Positions 8,873-18,959 of a stretch of 64,000 bases of DNA are shown here, piece after piece. Both the position numbers and the translations under genes were made by a program. The DNA is from Clostridiaceae bacterium (GTDB taxonomy: Bacteria > Bacillota > Clostridia > Lachnospirales > Lachnospiraceae), in NCBI GenBank assembly GCA_009911065.1, contig QXWR01000032.1, forward strand, positions 1-64,000, read 5' to 3'. Below the pieces are notes generated by a model. That model saw only the letters and a program-made list of their open reading frames with translations. It searched no databases and was not told where the DNA came from. Every line of letters starts with the position of its first letter. Position 1 is the stretch's first letter.

Positions 8873-8893
8873 ACCCTCGTTGTTCGCTGATAT

Positions 8894-8966
8894 TCCTCGA
8901 TAGCTCAGTCGGTAGAGCACGCGGCTGTTAACCGCGCTGTCGTAGGTTCAAGTCCTACTCGGGGAG
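8894..8966 (+). tRNA. tRNA-Asn(GTT)
   Basis: Acceptor TCCTCGA/TCGGGGA; anticodon stem CGCGG/CCGCG around CTGTTAA (GTT). First gene of the cluster. No CCA encoded. Confidence 0.94.
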
Positions 8967-8993
8967 TTTGGTCCATGGCGACCGGCATTTTGT

Positions 8994-9065
8994 GGCCCCA
9001 TGGTCAAGCGGTTAAGACATCGCCCTTTCACGGCGGTAACACGAGTTCGAATCTCGTTGGGGTCA
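8994..9065 (+). tRNA. tRNA-Glu(TTC)
   Basis: Acceptor GGCCCCA/TGGGGTC; anticodon loop CTTTCAC (TTC) in stem TCGCC/GGCGG; T-loop GTTCGAATC. Second gene of the cluster. Confidence 0.94.
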
Positions 9066-9081
9066 TTGGCAGTGAAATTTC

Positions 9082-9155
9082 GGACCTTTAGCTCAGTTGG
9101 TTAGAGCAACCGGCTCATAACCGGTCGGTCCTGGGTTCGAGTCCCCGAAGGTCCA
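9082..9155 (+). tRNA. tRNA-Met(CAT), elongator-type acceptor
   Basis: Acceptor GGACCTT/AAGGTCC with a normal G1:C72 pair, so it is not the initiator. Anticodon stem ACCGG/CCGGT around CTCATAA (CAT). A lysidine-modified tRNA-Ile2 cannot be excluded by eye. Confidence 0.9.
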
Positions 9156-9191
9156 TTGTAAGTACTTTTTCAACTGTATTAAGAAAGATCT

Positions 9192-9265
9192 GGCCCGGTG
9201 GCTCAGCTGGTTAGAGCGCCGCCCTGTCACGGCGGAGGTCGTGGGTTCGAATCCCATCCGGGTCG
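9192..9265 (+). tRNA. tRNA-Asp(GTC)
   Basis: Acceptor GGCCCGG/CCGGGTC with discriminator G; anticodon stem CCGCC/GGCGG around CTGTCAC (GTC). Confidence 0.94.
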
Positions 9266-9379
9266 CTGCAGTCAAAACGCACAGAAGTGGGTTTTGTCCA
9301 GTTAAGATTTAAGAAAGGATTTCACGGTGAGCAGTGAGAGTTCTGTGTGAGATCAATGAATTAAGAGGTTCTTATATTT

Positions 9380-9463
9380 GCGGGTATGGTGGAATAGGCA
9401 GACACAAGAGACTTAAAATCTCTCGGGAGCAATCTCGTGCCGGTTCAAGTCCGGCTACCCGCA
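9380..9463 (+). tRNA. tRNA-Leu(TAA)
   Basis: An 84-nt class II tRNA with a long variable arm (CGGGAGCAATCTCG). Acceptor GCGGGTA/TACCCGC; anticodon stem AGAGA/TCTCT around CTTAAAA (TAA). Last gene of the cluster. Confidence 0.94.
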
Positions 9464-9470
9464 TCATGTG

Positions 9471-12834: not shown

Positions 12835-14346
12835 ATGATCTATATTTCACTGTATTTTTATGTGTTTGTGGGAGGAATGGTATTATTATATTATGTTTTG
12901 CCAAAGAAATTCCGGTGGCTTGTCCTTTTAGCTGGGAGCATAGGATTTTATTACAAAATTTCACAAAAAGGTTTTTGGGTGTTTCTTGCTACCTTAGCGG
13001 CTGGATACGGATTGGGAATCGGATTGGAGTCTGGAAAAAGGGAGAAAGAAAAAAAGCTGACGGATGAGACGAAAGAATCAGGGAGAGCCGGGAAGGCAAA
13101 GGAGGGAAAAAAGCCGGGAAGATGGCTTCTTGTTGTGGGCATTTTTCTTCTGGCAGTTCCTTTGGTGGTCACAAAGAACGGGGATTTTGTCTTAAAGTCC
13201 TTGTTACATAGAAAATCCTATCCATGGATTGTGCCGGTGGGAATGTCTTTTTATACCTTGCAGATGATTTCTTATTTGGTGGATGTTTTTCGCGGGAAAA
13301 TCAAGGCTTTGAGAAATCCGGGAAAGTTTGCTTTGTTTGTCACATTTTTTCCCCAGGTGGTTCAAGGTCCCATTCCCCGGTATGAACAACTGGGAAATCA
13401 GCTTTATGAAGGGCATCCATTTGAAGAAAAAGAATTTTGCAAAGGGCTGCAGCTGATTGTGTGGGGATTTTTTCTGAAATTTATGATTGCGGACAAAGCA
13501 TCGATTGTGGTCAACCAGGTGTTTGACCATTGGAAAGCCTACCAGGGAGGTTATGTGCTTGTGGCAGGGGTGTTGTACAGCATTCAGCTGTACACCGATT
13601 TTTTATCCTGTGTGTGTCTGTCAAAAGGAGTGGCAGAGCTGTTTGGGATTCATCTGGCCGATAATTTCCGGCGTCCTTATCTGGCAGAATCGGTAAAAGA
13701 ATTTTGGGGAAGGTGGCACATTTCTTTAAGCAGCTGGCTGCGGGACTATATTTACATTCCCCTGGGAGGAAACCGGAAAGGAAGATTTCGGAAATATGTT
13801 CACATTTTTGTGGTGTTTACCATCAGCGGAATCTGGCATGGGGCAGGGTATAAGTATTTGTTTTGGGGATGGGTCCACGGCATTTATCAGATTGGGGGAG
13901 ATCTGACAAAGGGACTGCAAAATAAGATGTATGATCGTCTGCACATGGCAGAAGGAGGAAAAGCGAGGACCTGGTGCAGGCGGCTTGGAACCTGGTTTTT
14001 GGTGATGATCGCCTGGATTATTTTTCGGGCGGACAGTCTCCGGGAAGGCATTGCCATGGTTTATAAAATGATTACCGTGTATAACCCCTGGATTTTTTTC
14101 GACGATTCCCTGCTGAGGTTGGGCCTTTCTTGGAAGGAATGGGGAATGCTGGGGATTTCCTTGTGGGTGCTTTGCAAGGTGGAACAGACGCAGGAAAAGG
14201 AAGCTTTGGATGTGAGGGACCGGATTTTAAGACAGCCGCTGGTCCTTCAGTGGGGACTCTATCTGGCAGCGGTGGCATTTATCATGGTGTTTGGAACTTA
14301 TGGGTTTGGGTTTAACGCTGCAGATTTTATTTATGGAGGATTTTGA
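12835..14346 (+). CDS. MBOAT family membrane O-acyltransferase (AlgI/DltB-like)
   Basis: A 503-aa polytopic membrane protein that passes acyl groups (usually acetyl) across the membrane to a surface polymer. Family blocks are clear: VPVGMSFYTLQMISYLVDV (135-151), FFPQVVQGPIPRYEQL, FWGRWHISLSSWLRDYIYIP with H295, and GIWHGAGYKYLFWGWVHG with the catalytic-type H335. A charged cytoplasmic loop (about 67-96) is inserted near the N-terminus. The match to FWxRWHISLSxWLRDYIYIPLGGNR suggests an AlgI/PatA-like subgroup. It is followed with a tiny gap by an SGNH partner, the usual two-protein arrangement. The substrate (teichoic acid, capsule or peptidoglycan) cannot be deduced. Confidence 0.92.
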   Translation: MIYISLYFYVFVGGMVLLYYVLPKKFRWLVLLAGSIGFYYKISQKGFWVFLATLAAGYGLGIGLESGKREKEKKLTDETKESGRAGKAKEGKKPGRWLLVVGIFLLAVPLVVTKNGDFVLKSLLHRKSYPWIVPVGMSFYTLQMISYLVDVFRGKIKALRNPGKFALFVTFFPQVVQGPIPRYEQLGNQLYEGHPFEEKEFCKGLQLIVWGFFLKFMIADKASIVVNQVFDHWKAYQGGYVLVAGVLYSIQLYTDFLSCVCLSKGVAELFGIHLADNFRRPYLAESVKEFWGRWHISLSSWLRDYIYIPLGGNRKGRFRKYVHIFVVFTISGIWHGAGYKYLFWGWVHGIYQIGGDLTKGLQNKMYDRLHMAEGGKARTWCRRLGTWFLVMIAWIIFRADSLREGIAMVYKMITVYNPWIFFDDSLLRLGLSWKEWGMLGISLWVLCKVEQTQEKEALDVRDRILRQPLVLQWGLYLAAVAFIMVFGTYGFGFNAADFIYGGF

Positions 14347-14372
14347 GAACAAAAGAGGACGGAGGATTTGTT

Positions 14373-15935
14373 GTGGCACAGAAAAGGGAAACTAGGAAAA
14401 AACGGGGAGCATTTGTTTTAAAGTCCATTGTGTTTTTATGTCTGATGGGAATTGTGATTGGCGGGGTGAACCGGACTCTTACCCTCAAATACCGGCATAA
14501 TGTGACCAATCCCCTGACAGAGACTTACAAAGGATTTTACCGGATGAAGCCGGGGACCGTGGATGTTTTGATTCTTGGAAGCAGTCAGGCGGCATCTGGA
14601 ATCAATCCACAGGAGCTTTATAATGGCTTTGGGGTAAGAAGCTATAACCTGGGAAGCAATCATCAAAGCCTGTGGGCTTCTTATTTCTGGCTGAAAGAGG
14701 CTTATAAATACCAGTCTCCAAAGGCAGTGATTTTAGACTGTTATGAGCTTTTCCGGGACTGTAAAGGGGATGAGATTGCAACTCGTCAGGCTTTTGACGA
14801 AATGCGGTGGGGACTGGTAAAATGGGAGGCAGTTAAGACAATCTGCAGTTTGAACGAGGAATTGTCTTGGCAAAGTTATTTTCTCACCAATCTCCGTTTT
14901 CATAGCCGGTGGACGGGACTGAATGAAAATGATTTTACCTGGGGAGAGTTTGCTTTCGTGCCCCAGTTAAAGGGATTCTGGCTGTACCGGGGCAAATGCG
15001 GGTTTCAGGAGTTTACGCCTTTTGAGGCGGATTATGAAAGGGAAAAGCAAGGACAAAAGGAAACACAAAATCCGGCAGACAATTTGGAGCAGACGATTTT
15101 TCAGGAACCGGCAAAGGAGTATCTGGATAAGATTTTTCGTCTCTGTCAGGACCATGGCACAGAATTGATTTTAATAAAAACCCCTACTATGGCGCAGACT
15201 TTGGAGCGGCACAATGCTTTGGCCGATTATGCAGGTAAATATGGCCTTGGATTTTATGATTTTAATGAGAAAAAGCTGTATGAAGAGATTGGATTTGATT
15301 ATGGACAGGATATGAGCGACAACAACACCAAGGGAGATAAAAATGCCCACTCCAATCCCTCAGGAGCCAGAAAGATAACCAGCTATATGGGAAAGGAGTT
15401 GTCAGAGCAATACGGGCTGGGTTCCCGAAAGGATGATCAGTGGGAAGAAACCAGGGATTTTGGCGACGGAGTCTGGAAGGATTTTCAGCTTCGGTATGAA
15501 ACTCGTATGGAAAATTATCTGGAAATGCTGAACGATTCCCGGTATACGGTGTTCATTGGGGTTAAGGAGGATGGATGTTCTTATCTTGGGGAAGGGATTC
15601 AAAAGAAATTGCAAGAATTGGGGCTGAAATCAGACTGGACAAAAGAAGAGAAAAAAAGCTATTTTGCAGTGGTGGAAGCAGGACGGGTTTTAAGTGAGAA
15701 AATGTCAAAAGAGCGGTTGGAGGAGCTGGGGTCTTTTCGGGAAGGCAAGGTAATTTATCAGATTGTTAGCGCAGGAGGGGAAAGCGGCAATGACTGTTCC
15801 ATTAAAATCAATGGAGGGGAACAGGCAAAACGAAAACGGGGATGGAACATTGTGGTGTATAACCATGAGCTTCGGTGCGTGGTAGATTCGGTTTGCTTTG
15901 ATGTAGGGACCCAGGAGCTGACAGCCACCCGGTAA
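14373..15935 (+). CDS. SGNH-hydrolase-like partner (AlgJ/DltD-type) with C-terminal ILEI/FAM3-like domain
   Basis: 520 aa from the GTG at 14373, which has GGAGG 7 nt upstream; a TTG at 14343 overlapping the previous stop is the alternative. One N-terminal TM helix (about 14-33) anchors an extracytoplasmic domain. VLILGSSQAASGINP (about 65-79) carries the SGNH nucleophile Ser block, and NAHSNPSGARKI, near residue 335, the Asp/His-type block. It should complete acyl transfer started by the MBOAT protein just upstream. Residues about 391-520 form a separate module: YTVFIGVKEDG, SYFAVVEAGRVLSEKM, IKINGG and RGWNIVVYNHELRCVVDSVCFD. By memory this resembles the interleukin-like EMT inducer (ILEI/FAM3/PANDER) fold seen at the ends of some bacterial surface-polymer enzymes. 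Confidence 0.78.
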   Translation: MAQKRETRKKRGAFVLKSIVFLCLMGIVIGGVNRTLTLKYRHNVTNPLTETYKGFYRMKPGTVDVLILGSSQAASGINPQELYNGFGVRSYNLGSNHQSLWASYFWLKEAYKYQSPKAVILDCYELFRDCKGDEIATRQAFDEMRWGLVKWEAVKTICSLNEELSWQSYFLTNLRFHSRWTGLNENDFTWGEFAFVPQLKGFWLYRGKCGFQEFTPFEADYEREKQGQKETQNPADNLEQTIFQEPAKEYLDKIFRLCQDHGTELILIKTPTMAQTLERHNALADYAGKYGLGFYDFNEKKLYEEIGFDYGQDMSDNNTKGDKNAHSNPSGARKITSYMGKELSEQYGLGSRKDDQWEETRDFGDGVWKDFQLRYETRMENYLEMLNDSRYTVFIGVKEDGCSYLGEGIQKKLQELGLKSDWTKEEKKSYFAVVEAGRVLSEKMSKERLEELGSFREGKVIYQIVSAGGESGNDCSIKINGGEQAKRKRGWNIVVYNHELRCVVDSVCFDVGTQELTATR

Positions 15936-15969: not shown

Positions 15970-15998
15970 TTGACAAATTCCTTTGGTTAGCGTAAAAT
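15970..15998 (+). promoter_or_regulatory. Consensus sigma-A promoter of the metNIQ leader
   Basis: TTGACA, 17-bp spacer, TAAAAT. Predicted transcription start is near 16005, giving a leader of about 275 nt before metN that contains a Met-rich ORF and a terminator. A short ACAAGA/TCTTGT inverted repeat lies at 16013-16025. Confidence 0.85.
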
Positions 15999-16063
15999 AC
16001 GCTCATGGGTCTTTACAAGATTCTTGTTGATTGGTTTCGTTTATTTAAGGATGGAGAATCGTT

Positions 16064-16162
16064 ATGGATAACCGGACAAGCCTGCAGATGAATAAGATGG
16101 GGATGAGCGGCATGATGATGTGCATGTGCCGCATGTTCGTATGCTTAAAAAGTGTTGGATAA
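16064..16162 (+). CDS. Methionine/cysteine-rich leader peptide (32 aa) upstream of metNIQ
   Basis: ATG 16064 is preceded by AAGGATGGAG with good spacing and ends at TAA 16160-16162. Nine of 32 residues are Met and three are Cys, most of them in the core MGMSGMMMCMCRMFVC. It sits between a consensus promoter and an intrinsic terminator, with the methionine transporter genes next. Inside it, GCGGCA (16107-16112) can pair with TGCCGC (16127-16132), and GCATG-TTCG-TATGC forms a second hairpin (16131-16144). This is the layout of an amino-acid attenuation leader in which ribosome stalling at Met/Cys codons would decide read-through. Function is inferred. The alternative is a small metal-binding Met/Cys peptide. 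Confidence 0.8.
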   Translation: MDNRTSLQMNKMGMSGMMMCMCRMFVCLKSVG

Positions 16163-16220
16163 CTGCATGGATTGTGAGAAGAATTGGATGGTTCCGGTGA
16201 AGAATGGACGGATACTTTAA

Positions 16221-16252
16221 GATCGCAAGCCCTGGCAGGTTTGCGATTTTTT
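16221..16252 (+). terminator. Intrinsic terminator (attenuator) in the metNIQ leader
   Basis: ATCGCAAGCC pairs with GGTTTGCGAT around CTGGCA, followed by T6. It lies 58 nt after the leader ORF stop and 30 nt before the metN start. A candidate competing pairing is CTTAAA..GT (16144-16153) with ACTTTAAG (16214-16221), which only touches the base of the terminator, so the antiterminator is not settled. No SAM-I (S-box) consensus and no true T-box stem I is seen. Confidence 0.85.
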
Positions 16253-16281
16253 ATTTCCAAAAGAAAGGAGCAGTGATAGCA

Positions 16282-17295
16282 TTGGAAGAACCCATTATAC
16301 AACTGCGGAAGGTAGGGAAGGAGTTTAAGACCGCCAACGGTCCGGTGGTAGCTTTGGATGACATTAATCTGGACATTAGCCGGGGAGAGATTTTTGGCAT
16401 TATCGGTTTGTCCGGAGCGGGAAAGAGCACTTTGGTGCGGTGTATCAATATGCTGGAGACCCCCACTTCCGGGGAAGTGATTTTTGAGGGGGAGAATCTG
16501 GCGGCTCAGAACGATAAACAGAAGCGGATGGCCAGACGGTCCATGGGAATGATTTTTCAGCAGTTTAATCTGCTGGCCCAAAGGAACGTGCTGCGAAACG
16601 TCTGCTTTCCCATGGAGATTGCGGGAATATCCAGACAGGAAGGGAAAAAGCGGGCGATGGAACTTTTGGAGCTGGTAGGGCTGGCAGACCGGGCCAAGGC
16701 TTATCCGGCTCAGCTATCCGGAGGTCAGAAGCAGCGGGTGGCCATTGCAAGGGCCTTGGCCACCAACCCAAAAGTGATTTTGTGCGATGAGGCTACCAGC
16801 GCCCTAGATCCCAATACCACCAAGTCCATCCTGAACTTGTTAAAAGAGATCAACAAGACCATGGGTGTGACCGTGATCGTCATCACCCATGAGATGGCTG
16901 TGATTGAAGCCATCTGTGACCGGGTGGCGATCATTGATCAGAGCCATATTGCAGAGCTGGGAACCGTTTCGGAAATTTTTTCAGAGCCAAAGTCCAAAAT
17001 TGGCCGACAGCTGATTTTGGGAGATGCAGTCAATCAGGTGAAGTTCAGCGACTCTAAGCTTCTTCGAATTACCTTTGACGGAAGAGAGTCCACAGAGCCA
17101 GTGATCTCCAATCTGGTTCTTGCCTGCAAGGTTCCGGTGAATATTATGTATGCAGCCACAAAAGACATTAAAGGAACTGCCATGGGCCAAATGATTCTTC
17201 AGCTTCCAGAGGAAGAGTCGGATGCCAACCGGGTGGTCAATTATCTAAAGACCATTCAGGTTCCTTTTGAGGAGGTGACAAAATATGACGTATGA
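16282..17295 (+). CDS. metN: Methionine ABC transporter, ATP-binding protein
   Basis: 337 aa from a TTG start at 16282 with AAAGGAG 11 nt upstream; a GTG at 16273 is closer to the site but too near. The longer open frame back to 16204 would run through the terminator hairpin and is rejected. Walker A GLSGAGKST, Q-loop FQQFNLL, signature LSGGQKQR, Walker B VILCDEATSALD and the H-loop THE are all present. The C-terminal 90 residues (from about VNQVKFSD) form the NIL/ACT-like domain that binds methionine and inhibits MetN in known transporters. metI starts 11 nt before its stop, so they are translationally coupled. Confidence 0.95.
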   Translation: MEEPIIQLRKVGKEFKTANGPVVALDDINLDISRGEIFGIIGLSGAGKSTLVRCINMLETPTSGEVIFEGENLAAQNDKQKRMARRSMGMIFQQFNLLAQRNVLRNVCFPMEIAGISRQEGKKRAMELLELVGLADRAKAYPAQLSGGQKQRVAIARALATNPKVILCDEATSALDPNTTKSILNLLKEINKTMGVTVIVITHEMAVIEAICDRVAIIDQSHIAELGTVSEIFSEPKSKIGRQLILGDAVNQVKFSDSKLLRITFDGRESTEPVISNLVLACKVPVNIMYAATKDIKGTAMGQMILQLPEEESDANRVVNYLKTIQVPFEEVTKYDV

Positions 17296-17950
17296 TGCAG
17301 CAACCATGACCATGTTAAAGACTGCCATTTGGGAGACCTTTTATATGGTGGCCCTTTCTTCTTTCTTTGCCTATACAATTGGTATGCCTCTTGGAATTGT
17401 GCTGGTGGTGACGGATACGGACGGGATCTATCCCATTCCCTGGCTGCAAAAGATTCTGGGTCTTGCCATTAACCTGTTACGATCCGTACCGTTTTTGATT
17501 TTGCTGTTTATTGTGCTTCCTCTTTCCAAGATTGTCATTGGCACCCGAATCGGCTCTCCGGCGATTGTCATTCCTTTGACCATTGCAGCGGCTCCGTATA
17601 TTGCCCGGGTGGTGGAATCTTCGTTCCGGGAGATTGACGGGGGAGTAATTGAGGCGGCAAAGTCCATGGGAGCTTCCACATGGCAGATTATCTGGAAGGT
17701 GTTGCTGCCAGAATCCCGGCCATCCCTTCTTTTGGGAGCGGCCCTGGCGGTTACGACCATTTTAAGCTATTCTGCTATGGCTGGATTTACCGGCGGCGGC
17801 GGCCTGGGGGCAGTTGCCATCAACTATGGGTATTATCGGTATGAGCCGGGGCTGATGTGGGTGGCGGTGGTACTTTTGGTGGTGATGGTGCAGATTATTC
17901 AGGAGATCGGAACCTGGCTTTCCAAAAAGGGAGACAAGAGGATTCGGTGA
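17285..17950 (+). CDS. metI: Methionine ABC transporter, permease
   Basis: A 221-aa inner-membrane permease with about five TM helices. The EAA loop is visible as VIEAAKSMGASTWQIIWKVLLPES, the contact with MetN. The MetI-typical TILSYSAMAGFTGGGGLGAVAINYGYYRY follows. It overlaps metN by 11 nt. The first codons (MTYDAATMTMLKTAIWETFYMV) suit the family start. Next in the operon is the binding lipoprotein. Confidence 0.95.
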   Translation: MTYDAATMTMLKTAIWETFYMVALSSFFAYTIGMPLGIVLVVTDTDGIYPIPWLQKILGLAINLLRSVPFLILLFIVLPLSKIVIGTRIGSPAIVIPLTIAAAPYIARVVESSFREIDGGVIEAAKSMGASTWQIIWKVLLPESRPSLLLGAALAVTTILSYSAMAGFTGGGGLGAVAINYGYYRYEPGLMWVAVVLLVVMVQIIQEIGTWLSKKGDKRIR

Positions 17951-18038: not shown

Positions 18039-18959
18039 ATGAAAAAATCAGTGATCGCATTGGCAGTAACCGTGTTTACGGCAGCAGCTTTGACTGCATG
18101 CGGCGGCGGTAAAGGTGAGACCACAGGGACTCAGACCACAGCAGCAGAGAGTAAGGAGACCACAGCAGCTTCCAACGATTCAGAAACAAAAGAAACCCAG
18201 GAGAGCGAGGCTGCACCGGCTGCCGGTGAGTTGAAAAAGATTGTAGTAGGGGCAAGTCCTGCGCCTCATGCAGAGATTTTACGGGCAGCAAAAGATGTGC
18301 TGGCAGCAAAGGGATATGAGCTGGAGATTATGGAGTATGTGGATTACATTCAGCCCAATCTGGCTCTGGAATCTGCAGATCTGGATGCCAACTATTTCCA
18401 GCATCTTCCGTATTTGGAGTCGTTTAATGGAGAAAACAACACAAAGCTGGTATCTGCAGCTGCCATTCACTACGAGCCTTTTGGGATTTATGCAGGAAAA
18501 GCAGCTTCCCTTAACGAGCTGCCGGACGGAGCGACGGTTGCGGTTCCCAATGACACCAGCAATGAGGCGAGAGCGTTGCTTTTGCTGGAAGCGCAGGGCC
18601 TGATCAAGCTGAAAGAAGGCGCAGATCTGACGGTTACAAAAAATGATATTGTGGAAAATCCGAAGAATTTGAATCTGTATGAGGTGGAAGCCGCACAGAT
18701 TCCCCGTGTGGTGGAAGATGTGGACATTGCAGTAATTAACGGCAACTATGCCATTGAAGCAGGATTTAAGGTGTCAGAGGCTCTGGCTGTGGAGGATTCC
18801 CAGTCAATCGCAGCAACTACTTACGGAAATGTGGTAGCAGTGCGGGAAGGCCATGAGAAGGACGAAAATATTGTGGCTCTTGTGGAGGCTTTAACCAGCG
18901 ATGAAGTGAAGGCGTTTATTGAGAGCACCTATGAGGGCGCAGTGGTGCCCCTGTTCTAA
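18039..18959 (+). CDS. metQ: Methionine-binding lipoprotein (NlpA/MetQ family)
   Basis: 306 aa from the ATG at 18039, behind GAGGAGG. The signal ends in the lipobox ALTAC (Cys about 20), followed by a Thr/Ser/Glu-rich linker. The binding domain opens KKIVVGASPAPHAEIL and contains LDANYFQHLPYLE, IHYEPFGIYAGK, VAVPNDTSNEARALLLLE and VINGNYAIEAGF, all typical of MetQ/NlpA. It is tethered outside the membrane and delivers L- or D-methionine (or related substrates) to MetI. A strong terminator follows. The Met-rich leader supports methionine as a substrate. Confidence 0.95.
   Translation: MKKSVIALAVTVFTAAALTACGGGKGETTGTQTTAAESKETTAASNDSETKETQESEAAPAAGELKKIVVGASPAPHAEILRAAKDVLAAKGYELEIMEYVDYIQPNLALESADLDANYFQHLPYLESFNGENNTKLVSAAAIHYEPFGIYAGKAASLNELPDGATVAVPNDTSNEARALLLLEAQGLIKLKEGADLTVTKNDIVENPKNLNLYEVEAAQIPRVVEDVDIAVINGNYAIEAGFKVSEALAVEDSQSIAATTYGNVVAVREGHEKDENIVALVEALTSDEVKAFIESTYEGAVVPLF

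Follow-up and report, generated by a model that had tools for sequence, protein, structure and literature searches.

The methionine genes of Firmicutes are usually attributed to SAM riboswitches or Met T-boxes. The metNIQ operon in the 64,000-nt stretch of Lachnospiraceae DNA analyzed here (contig QXWR01000032.1, positions 1 to 64,000; hereafter, the window) raises the question of how it is controlled, as an Rfam scan of the window returned tRNA as the only family reaching the cutoff, with both the SAM riboswitch (RF00162) and the T-box (RF00230) unmatched. These two elements are hence rejected for the window metN, in line with the initial annotation, in which neither had been seen. That annotation had read a methionine-rich ORF and a terminator in front of metN as a candidate attenuator responding to methionyl-tRNA. 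Comparison with relatives supports this reading: the Met codons, the ORF, its position before metN and the terminator are all conserved, and the terminator covaries strongly. A ribosome-mediated transcription attenuator, dependent on charged methionyl-tRNA, is the best explanation for the control of metNIQ, and we consider it likely.

Organization of the Leader Region and the metNIQ Operon

The leader region lies between an upstream ORF, which ends at 15935, and metN at 16273, and all its features lie on the forward strand. A sigma-A type promoter, TTGACA-17-TAAAAT (15970..15998), matches the consensus at 11 of 12 positions. The promoter scan of the window is weak by itself (two promoter-like sites vs. 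2.8 in shuffles); among the 45 non-redundant Lachnospiraceae leaders compared below (window counted), the promoter is kept in 44, at most 230 nt from the leader ATG, and the 17-base spacer in 43. The -10 element lies inside a palindrome, AGCGTAAAATACGCT (15989-16003), at least five of whose six arm positions are kept in 24 of 44 leaders, the window among them. Without mismatch, GCGTANAATACGC occurs a single time in the genome; the palindrome, if an operator, is thus local.

A ribosome binding site, GGAG (16053..16056), is located 7 nt 5' of the ATG of the leader ORF (16064..16162). This ORF of 32 codons encodes the peptide MDNRTSLQMNKMGMSGMMMCMCRMFVCLKSVG, with nine ATG codons (start counted) and three TGC codons; promoter, ribosome site and codon counts all agree with the initial annotation. 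Leader codons 5-9 (16076..16090) constitute segment 1, a possible protector that could pair with segment 2, although in the window this pairing is a near tie. An ORF-internal hairpin follows at 16107..16132. Segment 2, the putative antiterminator arm TGCATGGATTGTGAGA (16164..16179), is a conserved word starting one base past the leader stop codon.

The intrinsic terminator (16219..16253) is built of a 5' arm (segment 3, 16219-16231), a six-base loop and a 3' arm (16238-16250), forming 13 pairs, followed by a T-rich tail; a terminator scan of the window gave two terminator-like sites vs. 1.8 in shuffles. A gap of 22 nt separates it from position 16273, where metN probably starts with GTG. The operon itself encodes a methionine ABC transporter ATPase with a NIL domain (metN, 16273..17295), a permease (metI, 17285..17950) and an NlpA-family substrate-binding lipoprotein (metQ, 18039..18959; domain scan from 18042). 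The top NCBIfam matches of these products are MetN, MetI and MetQ, all under the curated cut-offs, and the Pfam NIL and NlpA lipoprotein domains score above the Pfam cut-offs.

Upstream of the leader region, two ORFs at 12835-15935 resemble, as judged by eye, a membrane O-acyltransferase and its partner; for the second of them, NCBIfam gave no match and Pfam a sub-threshold match only. The tRNA genes for Asn, Glu, Met, Asp and Leu form a cluster of five at 8893-9465, about 7 kb upstream.

The Leader ORF Is Not a Chance ORF

The internal Met fraction of the leader, 0.25, is the highest among the 707 window ORFs of 20-60 aa. The maximum reached in 100 dinucleotide-Markov copies of the window, which contain 109,705 ORFs, is 0.24, and none of these ORFs has at least eight internal Met within 40 aa. 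A chance ORF is therefore rejected, as the Met fraction exceeds that of every Markov-copy ORF.

Across the 45 leaders, which measure 28-59 codons and contain 8-13 Met each, the ribosome site and the open reading frame are retained. Start codons aside, Met occurs 415 times in these leaders, far ahead of the next residue, Cys (130). Insertions and deletions in the core of the ORF are multiples of three, whole codons being gained or lost. In the 16 sequences from the genus, 12 of the 32 peptide columns do not vary, among them the non-Met positions Q8, G16, C22, R23, F25 and C27. The C-termini differ among genera: MCRMFVC, MCCVSAW, MCGMYLRG, MCSMTLRG and MCRTFSDV.

Conservation and Distribution

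At the DNA level, 15 of the 23 further genus genomes match the leader region, against none of 37 genomes from outside the genus. The metN gene is present in 17 of the 24 genus genomes, and all 16 leader-bearing genomes (window counted) fall among these. The seventeenth, L141 (G017), retains the promoter and has no Met leader ORF. A search of plasmid DNA for the leader gave no match.

A profile of the 16 peptides, used at E 0.01, matched 12 of 397 family genomes and revealed leaders in further genera. Two of the matching genomes belong to the window's own genus, and one match inside the family, L034, turned out to be no leader and was rejected. Outside the family, profile searches of 392 genomes of the order and 391 of the class yielded four matches (L115, L116, L171 and L172), none of which sits before metN. 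The genome contigs were also scanned with a codon-restricted DNA pattern for M-x-M-x-M-M-x-x-M, ATGRAYATGNNNATGATGNNYGRCATG, which recovered 53 loci: 33 with metN directly downstream, 2 leaders ending at the locus edge and 18 others, for which metN was not found within 1,500 nt. Among the loci preceding metN are those of Hungatella hathewayi, H. effluvii, Lacrimispora celerecrescens, [Clostridium] citroniae and Candidatus Enterocloster faecavium.

Merging of identical DNA around the stop reduced 59 leader loci to 41. L111, L113, L114 and L117 were added; L112, with a leader identical to that of L111, and the truncated L058 were excluded, and the later finds L149-L152 stand outside the counts of 45. 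Forty-four of the 45 leaders precede metN, and the remaining one is truncated by the locus end. L084 has no terminator inside its locus and is absent from the arm-energy, word, shared-word and first folding counts (n = 44); L008 has no promoter within 230 nt and is absent from the transcript-start folding set (n = 43).

The distribution was also approached from metN, for which 86 of 200 family genomes gave a match; 30 loci were examined among the matches listed. A leader precedes 11 of these 30, and all 11 sit among the 13 metN with at least 71% identity to that of the window. The other two of the 13 are L148, with a T-box, and L161, a partial match with a promoter and a terminator but no ORF. 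L035, which is not among the 30, has a leader in front of a metN 68% identical to that of the window. For the 17 more distant metN among the matches listed, the screen found no Met leader of this kind; a T-box is present at one of these, L159.

Some loci deserve separate mention. In L161 (G158), the terminator is retained and the near-stop word described below is absent; its metN should stay shut unless some other control exists. L157 has an unlike Met-rich short ORF, MIKYLMPVMCNSMHSHDNFIKRYGRMRMCMPMRALS, about 319 nt upstream of metN, which may be a chance ORF or a distant leader. L151 and L152 contain highly divergent Met leaders upstream of metN, and in L152 the word TGTATGGATTGTG makes up the final ORF codons.

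Covarying Terminator and ORF-Internal Hairpin

RNA elements were compared in an alignment (A4) of 30 of the 44 leaders, hand-picked and thinned of near-identical ones; the pairing registers for the covariation counts were set by hand from the same alignment. A4 omits the most divergent leaders (L029, L033, L035, L055, L066 and L072), and the percentages drawn from it are likely optimistic. An intrinsic terminator is located between the ORF and metN in 44 of the 45 leaders, the last one being truncated by the locus end. In A4, it comprises 11 pairs, with double changes at five.

The hairpin inside the ORF pairs codons 15-17 with codons 22-23; 98% of its A4 cells are paired, with the reservation just given, and double changes occur at three of six pairs. 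Terminator and ORF hairpin together contain 49 double-change cells, vs. 12.5 in shuffles, a count reached by 0 of 500 shuffles, and RNAalifold recovers both elements unaided. Over the 45 leaders, AGC occurs with CGC, AAC with CGT and TTC with CGA, i.e., Ser, Asn or Phe at codon 15 with synonymous Arg codons at 23, and Gly16 GGC changes to Asp GAC along with Cys22 TGC to TGT. A few misfit pairs (AAC or TGC with CGA) are present. In the window, the hairpins annotated at the Met-rich end correspond to a predicted 6-pair stem (16107-16112/16127-16132) nested in a longer fold.

The Near-Stop Word and Its Two Possible Partners

Close to the leader stop lies a conserved word, TGYATGGATTGTGA, with complementarity to two regions, the terminator 5' arm and the early ORF codons. 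The segment logic of the trp leader serves here as comparison: the complementarities give trp-like segments 1:2, 2:3 and 3:4. The possible pairing of the early ORF codons with the near-stop word is an addition to what had been annotated. Located past the leader stop or spanning it, the word TGYATGGATTGTGATT is matched at 12 or more of its 16 positions in 34 of 44 leaders and is more conserved than its flanking sequence. L026, L052, L062 and L065 have it with one additional base, and in L035, L066 and L072 a clear near-stop word was not found. Its position relative to the stop varies and in some leaders falls inside the ORF, so the word behaves as an RNA element. Its start lies at least 11 nt downstream of the first stop-codon base in 17 of 44 leaders, i.e., at or past the edge of the ribosome.

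For helix 2:3, between the word and the terminator 5' arm, 86.6% of the cells are paired in register vs. 18-46% in slid registers (A4; likely optimistic). There are no compensatory double changes in the 30 sequences, and 463 of 500 shuffles do as well, because the near-stop word hardly varies. Of the covarying antiterminator that the initial annotation had looked to for support, the complementarity is thus conserved and the covariation is missing. At several positions, A/G or C/U changes in the terminator arm keep the pairing with U or G in the word. In the window, the duplex energy does not stand out from that of shuffled arms (z +0.55); over 44 leaders, the mean z is -1.1, and nine fall within the best 5%. 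Cognate arms have only a slight advantage over non-cognate ones, with means of -15.9 vs. -15.4 kcal/mol and a mean cognate rank of 0.38 of the list.

For helix 1:2, between codons ~5-9 and the word, 91.9% of the cells are paired vs. 18-51% when slid (A4, with the same optimism). Two double changes are present; the pairing is reached by 3 of 500 shuffles and the double changes by 41-50 of 500. Codons ~5-9 and the terminator 5' arm also have a word in common, up to 10 nt long. The longest common word measures 5.75 nt on average for these codons, vs. 4.03 when shuffled and 4.02 for codons 10-18. Permutation among species reaches this value in 0 of 5000 cases and within clades in 14 of 5000 overall, with 336, 1923 and 77 of 5000 for the individual clades; hence, much of the shared-word signal follows the clade. 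RNAalifold offers a rival partner for the near-stop word, namely the last part of the ORF (columns 77-81).

Folding with a Masked Ribosome

In the simulation, the ribosome was masked and the RNA 3' of the mask was folded, with the 3' arm of the terminator not yet made. With the RNA begun at its likely start (43 leaders), the median number of 2:3 pairs is 0.3 for naked RNA, 11.9 with the ribosome at codon 9 and 5.3 with the ribosome at the stop. When folding starts 20 nt before the ATG (44 leaders), the medians are 0.7 naked, ~12 at codons 7-20 and 5.1 at the stop; with a 16-nt ribosome edge, the stop-state median drops to 1.5 pairs (44 leaders). These modeled medians display the three-state logic of the trp leader, though not cleanly. 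In transcript-start folding, the codon-9 state leads the naked state by more than three pairs in 25 of 43 leaders; its lead over the stop state is as large in 20 of 43, and the complete three-state pattern appears in only 15 of the 43. From 20 nt before the ATG, codon 9 has the advantage over the naked RNA in 25 of 44 leaders and over the stop state in 21 of 44.

For the window itself, 8 to 11 pairs of 2:3 form with the ribosome at codon 9 and 4 to 5 at the stop. Its naked fold is a near tie, with 1.9 or 10.4 pairs when the 3' end shifts by one base; the protector is therefore not robust in the window. The naked full transcript has 0.8 terminator pairs when started 20 nt before the ATG vs. 11.8 from the likely start. 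When the complete transcript is folded to equilibrium, the terminator remains favored although the ribosome is stalled (median 11.4 pairs), which implies that the switch would have to be kinetic, antitermination winning by forming first.

Proposed Mechanism and Alternative Explanations

When Met-tRNA is ample, the ribosome would arrive at the stop codon and cover segment 2 in leaders where this segment starts near the stop, as in the window; alternatively, it would depart, leaving segment 1 in the early ORF codons to pair with segment 2. With segment 2 occupied, segment 3 would be free, and the terminator (3:4) would form. Under a shortage of Met-tRNA, the ribosome would stall at one of the many Met codons and keep segment 1 unavailable. 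During the stall, segment 2 would capture segment 3 ahead of the synthesis of the terminator 3' arm, resulting in read-through into metNIQ. If the ORF is not translated, pairing 1:2 and termination are expected in many leaders. The covarying ORF hairpin probably pauses the polymerase, giving the ribosome time to load and to catch up.

The Met richness could also be part of an arrest sequence, the peptide halting the ribosome upon binding of methionine or SAM in a TnaC-like manner. The 12 invariant columns in the genus, non-Met residues included, speak for such a function. However, G16, C22 and R23 belong to the ORF-internal RNA hairpin, whose covariation includes both synonymous and non-synonymous sites, and Q8 falls within segment 1; furthermore, the C-terminal part differs across genera, and the core tolerates the loss or gain of whole codons. 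Nascent-chain arrest thus seems rather improbable, and the leader, as an example of an ORF carrying a covarying RNA hairpin, cautions against equating peptide conservation with peptide function. It is improbable as well that the ORF serves as a general sensor of translation speed or initiation, for example of the initiator fMet-tRNA, the internal Met codons not being sensed individually. A methionine link via the initiator tRNA has been suggested for the Streptococcus fthC uORF (PMC11109978), and the staphylococcal met T-box is described as preferring the initiator tRNA (PMC3771891), both according to the available parts of these papers; the 8-13 Met codons retained in each of the 45 leaders would nevertheless be left unexplained.

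An RNA binding some other ligand, or a protein-binding site, with the ORF being incidental, would account for a near-stop word conserved above its surroundings and for the palindrome over the -10 element in 24 of 44 leaders. Yet, the window has no matching Rfam family for such an element, and the ORF with its ribosome site is retained in 45 leaders, which makes this explanation very improbable. Cys-tRNA, offered as an alternative signal in the initial annotation, is the weaker candidate for the main signal: the conserved Cys codon 22 is required by the ORF-internal hairpin, and the Cys counts are low (2-4 per leader). A small metal-binding protein, suggested by the richness in Met and Cys, is unlikely, given that length and C-terminus vary and that the association is with metN. 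The attenuator dependent on methionyl-tRNA remains the preferred explanation.

Relation to Known Leaders

Like the trp, his, leu and ilv attenuators, the Met leader combines an ORF rich in the relevant amino acid with putative protector and antiterminator segments, a terminator and a stop near segment 2. It differs in that its amino acid also initiates translation, in the extra covarying hairpin within the ORF and in its first internal Met codons, which adjoin or fall in segment 1. Leader-peptide attenuation is likewise described, in the available parts of the papers, for other amino acids and operons: the ilv-leu operon of Staphylococcus aureus has a Leu-rich attenuator peptide (PMC5794164), and His leaders have been predicted in Firmicutes (PMC2965389).

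Among the matches listed in the full-text literature (titles and beginnings of abstracts, a body from which subscription papers are mostly absent), a Met leader was not recognized in Firmicutes or Lachnospiraceae. The statement of the initial annotation that none is known there holds to this extent, but a Met leader had been proposed elsewhere: in Streptomyces lividans TK24, the Met-bearing leader metL, MSTTSDRTPATEATTTPGARCMCRRMCAF, directly before metNIQ, was proposed from RNA-seq (PMC8079986). As far as the available text of that paper goes, metL resembles the Lachnospiraceae leader in bearing Met, in its place before metNIQ and in a similar CMCR-M string. In contrast, it is actinobacterial, has a leaderless transcript, no typical terminator and few Met codons; the likeness is one of features. 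Judged from sequence, the leader type described here, which precedes the methionine-import operon of numerous gut-type bacteria, is probably a classical switch with an unusual amino acid.

Methionyl-tRNA and SAM as Proposed Signals

The Met-specific T-box and the SAM riboswitch serve the same pathway in Firmicutes, but their RNA binds tRNA or SAM directly, and a leader ORF is unnecessary. Rfam was run on all 30 metN loci, and a T-box above the cutoff is located upstream of metN in two leaderless relatives (L148:2743-3009 and L159:2562-2820, both on the minus strand). The specifier triplet in the aligned stem I, read from the alignment at what we take to be the specifier position of T-boxes, is AUG in both. 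These AUG-reading T-boxes support Met-tRNA as the input to metNIQ.

As methionine is needed for initiation too, the sensing of its starvation is complicated. A band response is conceivable, albeit doubtful: since Met serves both elongation and fMet-tRNA initiation and the terminating fold is adopted by many leaders when untranslated, metNIQ might be read through only at an intermediate shortage of Met-tRNA and be shut again when initiation fails. If so, the early Met codons by the protector helix, together with the large number of Met codons, would permit a response before initiation suffers. It belongs to the same tentative reading that the leader and the AUG-reading T-box may replace each other at metNIQ within the family.

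If Hungatella, Lacrimispora, Enterocloster and other Lachnospiraceae share a conserved Met-codon attenuator, methionine would join the amino acids that this phylum senses through ribosome stalling. The attenuator would also show a leader peptide and a T-box alternating at one operon and would provide a clean test of how the shortage of the amino acid that starts every protein is sensed.

The genome of the window contains one SAM riboswitch, located upstream of metK, and exactly one is present in 21 of the 24 genus genomes. With metK behind a SAM riboswitch, SAM and Met-tRNA would be sensed separately. Five SAM riboswitches were listed with their downstream ORF: one locus ends too early, and the other four, L091, L092, L094 and L105, from the window genome and three relatives, precede metK.
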